Shown one piece after another: positions 2,870 through 16,745 of a stretch of DNA of 23,249 nt. The notes under the pieces are model-generated. The model did no database searches. It was given only the letters and a program-made list of their open reading frames with translations, and was not told the DNA's origin. The DNA is from a virus: positions 1 through 23,249 of IMG/VR virus record IMGVR_UViG_3300036781_000444. One strand, written 5' to 3'. The position numbers and the translations under genes were made by a program. Positions within the stretch are counted from its first letter, which is position 1; each line of letters begins with the position of its first letter.

Positions 2870-4018
2870 ATGGCAGGTCGCAATATCAAAGAAGGACTCG
2901 ATTACCTTAAGCTGGACGTGAATTACGGAACCGAGGACGCTGTCGAACTCATAGACAGTGAATTTGGCCCCCCTGGTTACAGGATCATCACAAAGCTCAT
3001 TCAGCGCATATACGGGAAGAAGGGATATTTTATTGACTGGAATGAAAAGAGACGCATCCTGTTTGCCAGCGCGGTCAAAGAAAAGGCTTCGCTGGTCGAC
3101 GAGGTTGTCGCCAGGTCGGTTAAGTGGGGACTCTTCAATGAGGCCGTATTTAACAAGTTTGGGATTCTCACAAGCGCGGACATTCAAATCAACTACCTCG
3201 ATGCTGCGAAGCGGCGCGAGGTAGTTGAAATCATCCGTGAAATTTCACTCAGTGACATTTCCGCACACGAAAATGCAATTTATGTCAGCATTAATCCTAT
3301 TTGTGTCAACATAAATGAACAGAGTAGAGTAGAGGAGAGTAAAGAACAGAAGAGTACAGTACAGAATACAGGGGCGCCGGTGGCGCCAACCGACACAAAA
3401 GTTTTAGGGGGAAAGAAGGAAAAGAAAATACGGGCGGCTTTCATTCCGCCCATTCTGCAGCAGGCGAAGGAGTATTTCCTAAAAAAAATCGGCGATCCGA
3501 AGGATCCGCGCAGCTGGCCGGAACACCGGTGTCTCAACGAGGCAGAATCTTTCTGGGATCATTACAAAACAAATGGCTGGGTGCAGGGCCGCGGCAAGCC
3601 CGTCAAAGACTGGGAAGCTGCCGCCCGAAACTGGATACGCAACGGTCTGAAGGGGGTTTTTGAAAAGCCGGAGTTTGTTTCAAAAGAAAAACCTGCTGAG
3701 CGGCGGCGCGAAGAGATGCCCGCCCTGAATAAAACCCAAGAGGAGCTCAATTACCTCTATGAGCATTGGCTGGAAAATCCCGACAACATCACCGTGATCA
3801 GCGTCGAGTCCGCCCACTACAATTTCCTGAAAAGCGCTCACATGATCAGTTTTACCGAGACAGAAGCGGCTGAGATCCGCCGGCTGGCCATCACCCATAT
3901 ACAGGAGAAGAAGCTGGAAGGGCCGAACTATGAAGTACGCCTCATGAAATCCTACGGCGTACTAGAATTTTTCAAACAACTAAAAAACCAGGGCAAGGAG
4001 ACTGTTTTCACATGCTAG
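2870..4018 (+). CDS. Phage replication initiator/replisome protein with Lin1244/Lin1753-like (DUF4373) N-terminus
   Basis: 382 residues in two parts. Residues about 9-125 match the Lin1244/Lin1753-like (DUF4373) winged-helix-like domain of phage replication proteins: a YLKLDVNY start, a GYRIITKLIQRIYGKKGYFIDW core, and an IQINYLDAAKRREVVEI end. A low-complexity linker (about 130-190, Ser/Glu/Lys/Thr rich) follows. Residues about 190-262 have the pattern IPPILQQAKEYF...FWDHYKTNGW...KPVKDWEAAARNWI, which recurs at the C-terminus of such phage initiators. The final 120 residues are helical. By analogy with lambda O or DnaD-type proteins it should bind the origin and recruit the host replicative helicase, since no phage polymerase, primase or DnaB is seen in this window. 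DNA inverted repeats and a purine-rich tract fall in the part encoding the linker, where lambda also keeps its origin. The start at 2870 follows an A-rich leader. The 3' end overlaps the next gene by 7 bases. Confidence 0.85.
   Translation: MAGRNIKEGLDYLKLDVNYGTEDAVELIDSEFGPPGYRIITKLIQRIYGKKGYFIDWNEKRRILFASAVKEKASLVDEVVARSVKWGLFNEAVFNKFGILTSADIQINYLDAAKRREVVEIIREISLSDISAHENAIYVSINPICVNINEQSRVEESKEQKSTVQNTGAPVAPTDTKVLGGKKEKKIRAAFIPPILQQAKEYFLKKIGDPKDPRSWPEHRCLNEAESFWDHYKTNGWVQGRGKPVKDWEAAARNWIRNGLKGVFEKPEFVSKEKPAERRREEMPALNKTQEELNYLYEHWLENPDNITVISVESAHYNFLKSAHMISFTETEAAEIRRLAITHIQEKKLEGPNYEVRLMKSYGVLEFFKQLKNQGKETVFTC
3189..3228. repeat. Perfect 12-bp inverted repeat with inner stem
   Basis: The arms TCAACTACCTCG (3189-3200) and CGAGGTAGTTGA (3217-3228) are exact reverse complements separated by 16 bases. 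Inside the spacer, GCTGC (3203-3207) and GCGGC (3211-3215) can pair with one G-T wobble around a GAA loop, so the whole element can fold as a long hairpin of about 17 pairs. It lies in protein-coding sequence (INYLDAAKRREVVEI), so codon choice must have accommodated it. Confidence 0.85.
3278..3316. repeat. 8-bp A/T-rich inverted repeat
   Basis: ATTTATGT (3278-3285) is the exact reverse complement of ACATAAAT (3309-3316), with a 23-base A/T-rich spacer. It forms the A/T-rich middle part of the candidate origin. Being short and A/T rich it could occur by chance. Confidence 0.55.
3321..3370 (+). repeat. Purine-rich AGAGTA-type direct repeats
   Basis: A 50-base tract of almost pure A and G on this strand holds several imperfect copies of AGAGTA (for example at 3321, 3326, 3336 and 3351) and then ACAGTACAG-type copies. 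It encodes the Ser/Glu/Lys/Thr linker of the initiator. Candidate initiator-binding iterons or an unwinding tract, or simply low-complexity linker coding. Confidence 0.6.
3373..3387. repeat. GGCGCC palindrome pair
   Basis: GGCGCC occurs twice with a 3-base spacer (GGT), so the 15 bases can form a very G/C-rich 6-bp stem immediately after the purine tract. It encodes part of the linker (GAPVAP). Confidence 0.7.
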
Positions 4019-4320
4019 AAATTTTTCAAACCGACACCGGCTATCTGAATTCGCCGGAAGCTGGCGAGCCATCATGTATCTGTTCCCGGTGTATGCGAAC
4101 TATAACGGAAAACGAACTTCCGCTGCGGTTGATGGGCTTGCGCCATACAACCGACGGTTGCTGCTATAGCCGAGGGGATCAGCAGGCCTACGAGTATCGC
4201 TACTGTGACGCCTGCCAGCTGGCAATGGGATTTTCTTTCCTTCCATCGGTCCCTGATCCGGACCTGCACCGGGATCACTTCGACCCAATGGACGAGATTA
4301 AAAGGGAGGACTGTCCATGA
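4012..4320 (+). CDS. Small zinc-finger-like protein, unknown function
   Basis: 102 residues with two knuckles that look like one zinc site: CSRC at about residues 24-27 and CDAC at about 65-68, plus extra Cys (C22, and a CC pair near residue 50). The spacing is that of small phage treble-clef or ribbon proteins such as HNH-less zinc proteins or transcription modulators; no HNH or DNA-cleavage residues are obvious. The start overlaps the initiator stop by 7 bases and follows AAGGAG at 3995-4000. Its stop overlaps the resolvase start (ATGA at 4317-4320). It is therefore translated as part of the replication operon. A DNA- or protein-binding accessory is the simplest guess. Confidence 0.7.
   Translation: MLEIFQTDTGYLNSPEAGEPSCICSRCMRTITENELPLRLMGLRHTTDGCCYSRGDQQAYEYRYCDACQLAMGFSFLPSVPDPDLHRDHFDPMDEIKREDCP
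4304..4309 (+). promoter_or_regulatory. Shine-Dalgarno site of the resolvase gene
   Basis: GGGAGG at 4304-4309 lies 7 bases before the ATG at 4317, inside the 3' end of the upstream gene. It supports the start at 4317 and is notable because many starts in this window lack such a site. Confidence 0.7.
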
Positions 4321-4739
4321 TAGCCAGAAAACAGTACAGAATCGTCATCGGCATCGATACAGGCGTCGAGACAGGATTTGCCATGTGGGATAAGGAACTC
4401 CGCAGGCTCGTCATTGTCGAAAGCCGCATGATCCACGAAGCTATGGATACGGTAAAAGGGTTCGCAGGTCCTGCTACGCTGGTCAGAGTGGAGGATGCTC
4501 GCCAGGCAGTCTATGGCCGGCAGAACGATGCTCACAAGCTGAAAGGGGCGGGCTCAGTTATGCGTGATGCGAAGATATGGGAGGACTTTTTGACAGGCCT
4601 CGGCCTCGATTTTGAAATGCTCAGGCCCCGCAAGCAGTTCACTAAACTCAGCTCCGAAGCCTTCCAAAAGATAACCGGCTGGGCCGGAAGAACCAATAAC
4701 CACGCCCGCGATGCCGCTATGCTGGTATTCGGGTACTAA
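4317..4739 (+). CDS. RuvC-fold Holliday junction resolvase
   Basis: 140 residues with the acidic pattern of the RuvC/RNase H fold. GIDTGVETGFAMW (residues 12-24) supplies the first catalytic Asp (D14) on the first strand, VRVEDAR (56-62) supplies the acidic pair E59/D60, and NNHARDAAMLV (127-137) supplies the C-terminal Asp (D132). A GAGSVMRDA stretch at 77-85 also fits the family. It should cut four-way junctions and branched replication intermediates so that concatemers can be packaged. Length is that of compact phage resolvases. It overlaps the upstream gene by ATGA and has a clear Shine-Dalgarno site, so it is translationally coupled. With the SNF2 helicase it gives the phage its own branch-processing pair. 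Some related proteins in phages are annotated only as RuvC-like; the nuclease role is well supported. Confidence 0.85.
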   Translation: MIARKQYRIVIGIDTGVETGFAMWDKELRRLVIVESRMIHEAMDTVKGFAGPATLVRVEDARQAVYGRQNDAHKLKGAGSVMRDAKIWEDFLTGLGLDFEMLRPRKQFTKLSSEAFQKITGWAGRTNNHARDAAMLVFGY

Positions 4740-7369: not shown

Positions 7370-7404
7370 AGAATCGGGGTTATTTTACACATAACCCCGA
7401 TTTT
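7370..7404 (+). terminator. Strong hairpin with short T tract, probable terminator at the early/packaging boundary
   Basis: AATCGGGGTTAT (7372-7383) and ATAACCCCGATT (7391-7402) are perfect reverse complements with a 7-base loop (TTTACAC). The stem can extend outward by G-T (7371/7403) and A-T (7370/7404). The 3' side ends in TTTT (7401-7404), part of which is inside the stem, so the T tract is short for an intrinsic terminator. It ends two bases before the ATG at 7406, so it could also block or regulate translation initiation of that gene, or act in both ways. No obvious promoter was found between the hairpin and the next gene. Confidence 0.75.
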
Positions 7405-16421: not shown

Positions 16422-16745
16422 ATGACCAATAAAGAAGCCCTGATCGCCTGTCTGCAAGTTGTCACGATGCCCGACAACGCTCTCGTCAAAGCCCTGATAG
16501 ACCGGAGCGTTGTCGGCACCGTTGATTATACGGCAGCATCGGCGTCCGGAATTGATCTGGCGACCATAGATCTCCTCCAGGGCCTCTTGTCGAATCCGGA
16601 TATCACCGAAGGCGGCTATTCCATCCGGTTTGACCGGACGGCGGTCCAAAACAGGCTTCTGTTTCTGGCGAGAAAGAACAACGCGACGGAAGTGATCGCA
16701 GCAATTGCACCAGTGCCCACCATTAAAGGCGCCAGTCCATGGTGA
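16422..16745 (+). CDS. Head-tail connector/adaptor-like protein
   Basis: 107 residues, compact and helical (KEALIACLQVVTMPDNALVKALIDRSVVG, split by charged and small residues), with a C-terminal half ending QNRLLFLARKNNATEVIAA. This is the size, fold type and position of SPP1 gp15/HK97 gp6-like adaptor proteins that dock on the portal ring after the head fills. The call is by composition and gene order; no residue signature is unique. It overlaps the next gene by 7 bases, so the connector genes are translated as a chain. Confidence 0.6.
   Translation: MTNKEALIACLQVVTMPDNALVKALIDRSVVGTVDYTAASASGIDLATIDLLQGLLSNPDITEGGYSIRFDRTAVQNRLLFLARKNNATEVIAAIAPVPTIKGASPW

Follow-up and report, generated by a model that had tools for sequence, protein, structure and literature searches.

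The initiator gene and its repeats

The stretch of DNA analyzed (the window, 23,249 bases) corresponds to an entire virus record (G000) that is itself probably a fragment. A gene within it encodes a 382-residue protein assigned to the Lin1244_N/DUF4373 type by Pfam PF14297 (E 2e-22; 80 bits against a curated cut-off of 25) and matching PHROG 2562, 'replication initiation protein' (E 6e-43). The features of this gene are listed below.

2870-4018, plus strand: replication initiator gene, 382 aa, Lin1244_N/DUF4373 type; contains the candidate origin
2921-3217, plus strand: predicted winged-helix DNA-binding domain, residues 18-116 (AlphaFold pLDDT >90)
3189-3228, no strand assigned: perfect 12-bp inverted repeat with inner stem (arms 3189-3200 and 3217-3228, spacer 16); judged outside the origin
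3257-3277, plus strand: degenerate outer iteron (ATTTCCGCACACGAAAATGCA), a weak match that keeps the 21-nt register of the two copies after it
3278-3298, plus strand: iteron 1 (ATTTATGTCAGCATTAATCCT), core ATGT-CA-GCAT; a 21-nt repeat with its register fixed to the tract, register and core being shared by many of 58 relatives
3299-3319, plus strand: iteron 2 (ATTTGTGTCAACATAAATGAA), core GTGT-CA-ACAT, adjoining the tract; same basis as iteron 1
3296-3412, plus strand: disordered linker, residues 143-181 (pLDDT <50), encoded by iteron 2, the tract and the GGCGCC pair
3320-3364, plus strand: pentad tract, 45 nt, purine-rich, 5-nt period (AGAGT/AGAGG/AAAGA/ACAGT); based on 22-mer matches, the codon test and lag-5 periodicity
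3373-3387, no strand assigned: GGCGCC pair (3373-3378 and 3382-3387); judged outside the shared element

In the AlphaFold model of the initiator, the disordered residues 143-181 sit between folded parts and the C-terminal part is helical. Comparison of the N-terminal domain by VIA-align returned winged helices of CodY, CRP, TFE and MarR type (Z up to 5.7), a result that, for a predicted structure, backs a generic winged helix and nothing more specific. Foldseek with the full initiator model returned no significant match. Genes adjoining Lin1244 initiators (76 proteins scanned) were found to encode DnaB helicases (13/76), IstB/DnaC-like ATPases (11) and G39P-type loaders (2); in the window, no DnaB or helicase loader adjoins the initiator gene. 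The initiator gene is preceded by one for a SNF2-type helicase (947-2632) and followed by one for a Holliday-junction resolvase (PHROG 1770; 4317-4739). No relatives were found when viral contigs were scanned with single proteins (the initiator and the SNF2 gene product), and megablast of the window against phages gave no match. Cumulative GC skew, calculated for the 23-kb fragment only, climbs across the initiator region without a turning point.

All four symmetry or repeat elements that a sequence-only reading had described in this gene are present, mostly where it placed them. The A/T-rich inverted repeat that it described at 3278-3285 / 3309-3316 does exist: its arms are the outer half-sites of two palindromic direct repeats of 21 bp that lie side by side. 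These two repeats are the iterons at 3278-3319 (core ATGT-NN-ACAT), which stand in fixed register to the tract. Its purine-rich AGAGTA repeat is likewise present and is more accurately viewed as a repeat of 5-nt units spanning 3320-3364, with the consensus ARAGT and beginning CAGAGTAGAG immediately after iteron 2. Lag-5 matches within this tract (31/40) represent the highest 5-nt periodicity of the whole window (mean 9.7, sd 2.9), and the tract is modestly AT-rich (about 42% GC versus about 52%). The two iterons of the window alone displayed a weak excess over synonymous recoding (p 0.03).

The 12-bp inverted repeat, folded as single-stranded DNA, has an energy of -16 kcal/mol (z -7.4), and none of 60 synonymous shuffles of the initiator gene generated an inverted-repeat arm greater than 10; thus, the repeat exceeds chance. 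With its perfect arms, strong fold and absence from shuffles, this hairpin might be regarded as the functional core, for example as a cruciform. A hairpin of this kind should be kept where the initiator is kept, and absence of the repeats from close relatives that retain the protein had been named beforehand as a refutation. In the single close relative found (L006, a contig of Sphingobacteriales 50-39 with 68% identity over the entire initiator protein), both arms are destroyed, the hairpin energy drops from -16 to -2.8 kcal/mol, and the iterons and tract are retained. Similar perfect 12-bp inverted repeats are also present at 7372 and 16471 of the window, where approximately none are expected from shuffles. 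The hairpin was therefore rejected as origin core, a role we now consider extremely unlikely, and the earlier view that the window holds no comparable cluster elsewhere does not hold for the inverted repeat; the tract and iterons are outstanding. L006 retains the GGCGCC pair only within a small block of conserved coding sequence, and the pair was not seen elsewhere in the Lin1244 family. Neither the hairpin nor the GGCGCC pair is judged to belong to the shared origin element.

Three perfect 12-bp inverted repeats in one window are far above the number in shuffles. The repeat at 7372-7402 is intergenic, with a 7-nt loop and a short T run after it (AATCGGGGTTAT-TTTACAC-ATAACCCCGATTTT), and looks like a terminator or operator; that at 16471-16516 is within coding sequence (CCGACAACGCTC ... 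GAGCGTTGTCGG). Compared to L006, base changes that perfect the hairpin arm in the initiator gene are clustered at 3200-3229 (CGACAGGGTTGAT in L006, CGAGGTAGTTGAA in the window), from which we infer an event resembling template-switch (quasipalindrome) conversion in one lineage.

Conservation of the iterons and tract as DNA

The segment 3299-3343 is nearly unchanged in L006. At residues conserved between the two initiators, 38 of 39 codons were identical in codons 121-180 (nt 3230-3409) compared to 135 of 220 elsewhere (p 1.4e-6), a comparison based on fixed 20-codon bins of which three were pooled, chosen as covering the iteron and tract elements. Synonymous change is thus suppressed across the iterons and tract, which is a signature of DNA-level function. 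Immediately beyond the tract and GGCGCC pair (3395-4018), identity to L006 falls sharply; the linker resembles a module boundary at which initiator C-terminal parts could be swapped.

A set of 70 distinct Lin1244 genes (window included) was assembled by searching with the N-terminal domain, with no selection based on the tract. The tract (at least 19 of 22 positions) was detected in 58 of the 70 genes, at the same mid-gene place as in the window, and 54 genes scored above synonymous shuffles of their own sequence (p 0.05 or lower). Identity within the family tracts was 0.61-0.73 at lags of 5, 10, 15, 20, 25 and 30 and approximately 0.3-0.4 at other lags, values that are favorably biased by the picking of tract positions on the real sequence, a bias of which the synonymous-shuffle and codon tests are free. 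The 84 nt upstream of the tract displayed a single sharp period of 21 nt (0.48 versus approximately 0.28) with its register locked to the tract start, the typical family unit being GTTAATGTNNACATTAATCCC followed directly by CAAAGTAAAG. The reading frame is constant across the tracts because the other two frames hold stop codons; therefore, the constant frame is no evidence either way.

Conservation of this kind might also arise from selection on the encoded peptide: a need for flexibility or for binding a partner would maintain the linker (QSRVEES/QSKVKES, of S-K/R-V-K/E-E repeats), and the DNA repeats would be secondary. The linker peptide is recurrent, and synonymous recodings of AT-rich genes score fairly high (null mean 17 of 22). 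By contrast, codon choice was found to be set by position and not by amino acid. Within the linker peptide S-[KR]-x-x-x, Ser was encoded by AGT in 88/88 cases (background 25%) and Val by GTA in 68/68 (background 33%), while the Lys codon in the same repeats was AAA before Val (82/82) and AAG after Val (63/65) against a background of 65/35% (p 8e-40). All synonymous codons were in use for the conserved motif ILTSxGIQ of the same genes, which served as an ancestry control; thus, shared ancestry does not explain the fixation of tract codons. The 70 genes are partly related, forming 9 groups at 50% identity, and one representative per group gave the same codon pattern (AGT 8/8). Period 5 was above the synonymous null at each multiple of 5 in the Lin1244 family tracts, and initiators of the type found in Lactococcus phage Tuc2009 keep period 5 with a different peptide (VRLGKDRLGK). 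Peptide selection is, by these findings, highly unlikely. Position, register, periodicity and selection acting on DNA and not on peptide are shown by these computations.

The tract was also examined beyond this gene set. An IMG/VR scan with the exact tract 22-mer (window 3320-3341) identified 13 viral contigs, 11 of them distinct (two pairs identical), and in 13/13 the 22-mer was in frame within a replication initiator gene, immediately following the part for the N-terminal domain. Ten of these proteins were scanned: six matched Pfam Lin1244, and the rest matched PHROGs of DnaD-like helicase loaders or other replication proteins. The same exact scan with the reversed 22-mer as control detected 0 contigs. 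An A-rich 22-mer (CAAAGTAAAGTAAAGGAAAGTA) was present in at least 120 contigs, of which 80 were examined; Lin1244_N was detected in 74, including 32 that also had a DnaB_2/DnaD-like domain, and several of the contigs with no Lin1244_N match were short or cut off at the contig end. When 296 Bacteroidota genomes were searched with a degenerate tract pattern, four occurrences were found, three of which were in Lin1244 genes. A pattern match in a bacterial genome (L134) is not within an initiator and seems to run antisense to a gene resembling a transporter; it was treated as chance. ARAGT tracts are common among the Bacteroidota Lin1244 genes, some of which have AAAAC, ACAGT or ACAGAA repeats or none visible; in about half, inspection by eye showed a different tract type or no evident tract.

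Short-period repeats in disordered coding stretches are typical slippage sites, and the tract could in principle be a chance microsatellite or slippage product within an unconstrained linker. This explanation is barely credible: hundreds of otherwise different and divergent phages share the tract pentamers letter for letter, the spacing to the iterons is constant, reversed control patterns do not occur or are no more frequent than chance predicts, and slippage in 5-nt steps would destroy the reading frame.

Comparison with known origins

The arrangement was compared to that of known origins. As in the lambda ori, the phage candidate is located mid initiator gene, with palindromic iterons followed by an A/purine-rich region on the same side. 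Lambda differs in that its iterons are 20-24 bp apart and of another sequence, its tract is of the ACACAAAAGACA type with no strict 5-nt period, and the DNA-binding domain of its initiator is from another family. According to the part of PMC7466680 that cites Dodson 1986, two lambda iterons plus the adjoining AT-rich region are enough for unwinding, and lambda O binds single-stranded DNA of the AT-rich region (PMC7466680). Lambdoid O genes (L255 and L338-L345: lambda, P22-like, HK446, SEN22 and PhiR30) were observed to have unlike iterons followed by a common ACACAAAAGACA...ACAAAAG; this sequence of lambda and several lambdoid O genes is the known AT-rich region, conserved beyond the iterons. 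In Paenibacillus phage Pd_22F (MZ092003), the C-terminal part of the DUF4373 protein matches lambda O residues 158-270, which connects Lin1244 initiators with O-like C-terminal domains.

The rep gene of Lactococcus phage Tuc2009, annotated in its record as 'contains origin of replication', served as a positive control. Similarly to the Lin1244 genes, it has iterons (GCAACCAAATGNC) followed by a purine tract of strict 5-nt period (AGGAT/AGGTT) starting AGGATAGGATAGGAGAGGTTAGGTTAGGTAAGG; it differs in its pentamer (AGGWT versus ARAGT) and in its DnaD-like initiator, the N-terminal domain of which is of another PHROG family. The same 5-nt period was found in Tuc2009-type genes (41 distinct; identity 0.64-0.78), with a pentamer unlike that of Lin1244. 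Tuc2009-type DNA-binding initiators (L258-L337) usually have AGGWT tracts. Two genes (L008 and L009) instead pair the Tuc2009-type DNA-binding domain with an AGAGT tract; thus, tract type and DNA-binding domain are recombinable.

Other systems are similar in part. In SPP1 oriL, the initiator gene itself (gene 38) contains direct repeats to which the initiator binds, together with an AT-rich DUE (PMC6316719), a likeness in layout to the Lin1244 candidate that is drawn from the published description alone. In rep of pSK41, a RepA_N plasmid, the origin repeats are central in the gene, the linker that they encode is not needed at the protein level, and the C-terminal domain is DnaD-like (PMC5703833); the central position of origin repeats over a linker is shared with the phage gene, while the plasmid setting and RepA_N domain are not. 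The DnaA-box/DnaA-trio module of oriC has double-stranded initiator sites beside a short-period, A-centered repeat tract (PMC8287927), much as the iterons adjoin the pentads. By contrast to the 3-nt period of the DnaA-trio, the pentad tract has a period of 5 nt and no 3-nt signal: identity at lag 3 was 0.32, like that at other non-multiples of 5, and 0.71 at lag 5.

Iterons often double as autoregulation sites, and the tract includes Shine-Dalgarno-like GAGG/AGG letters, as might be expected of a regulatory operator or RNA element (for initiator autoregulation or as an internal ribosome site) instead of an origin. The site, however, is mid-gene and away from the gene start, no start codon was found at a fixed distance 3' of the tract, and the layout matches the known initiator-embedded origins of lambda O, SPP1 gene 38 and Tuc2009 rep; a regulatory role in place of an origin is thus very unlikely. 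A series of primase trinucleotides (CTA or TTA, one per 5 nt of the pyrimidine strand) was also considered as the cause of the 5-nt period; the AAAAC and AGGTT variants are a poor fit to it.

A candidate origin, possibly read in fives

We propose, with a probability of roughly 0.85, that replication of this phage originates in the segment 3257-3364 within its initiator gene, an origin composed of iterons and a tract for unwinding and helicase loading. By sequence, the segment would fall in the lambda-type class: it is inside the initiator gene and has dyad-symmetric direct repeats with a strand-asymmetric, A/purine-rich adjoining tract. The suggestion of a lambda O-like origin embedded where the initiator gene encodes its linker is strongly supported by the iterons and tract, though two of its proposed elements, the hairpin and GGCGCC pair, are judged not to be part of it. 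As had been expected, such a candidate origin defines an origin type for Lin1244/DUF4373 initiators.

By analogy with lambda, SPP1 and pSK41, the initiator would bind through its winged-helix domain to the palindromic 21-bp iterons (3278-3319), which are two helical turns apart and thus on one DNA face. The iteron-bound complex would then open the neighboring purine tract of 5-nt period (3320-3364), and the initiator or a partner may hold the single strand of this tract during loading of a DnaB-type helicase. As the encoded segment is a disordered linker, the DNA letters are free for selection on origin function.

The constant five-base step suggests, by analogy, that some protein may read the tract stepwise as DnaA reads trios. 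More tentatively, and as a possible rather than probable reading, the tract may be a sequence-specific single-strand element, the phage counterpart of the DnaA-trio, that is read every five bases by a shared factor and serves several unrelated initiator families. We take these families to be the Lin1244, DnaD-like and other replication proteins, and the factor to be, presumably, the initiator C-terminal domain or a helicase loader.

Both Firmicutes and Bacteroidota have phages and prophages with Lin1244/DUF4373 proteins. A literature search, mostly without subscription journals, found no published origin or origin-activity measurement for Lin1244/DUF4373 phages. Origins of the lambda/SPP1-like kind are already known; on our best reading, what is new is the Lin1244 family and its conserved pentad tract. 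The layout predicts a base-exact candidate origin in every Lin1244 phage with such a gene, and linker peptides such as QSKVKESKVKES would be DNA signals in disguise. The conserved 5-nt period, as opposed to the 3-nt period of the DnaA-trio, raises the question of which protein reads single-stranded or melting DNA by fives. If true, the reading of pentads by a shared factor would provide a general rule to find and classify phage origins from sequence.
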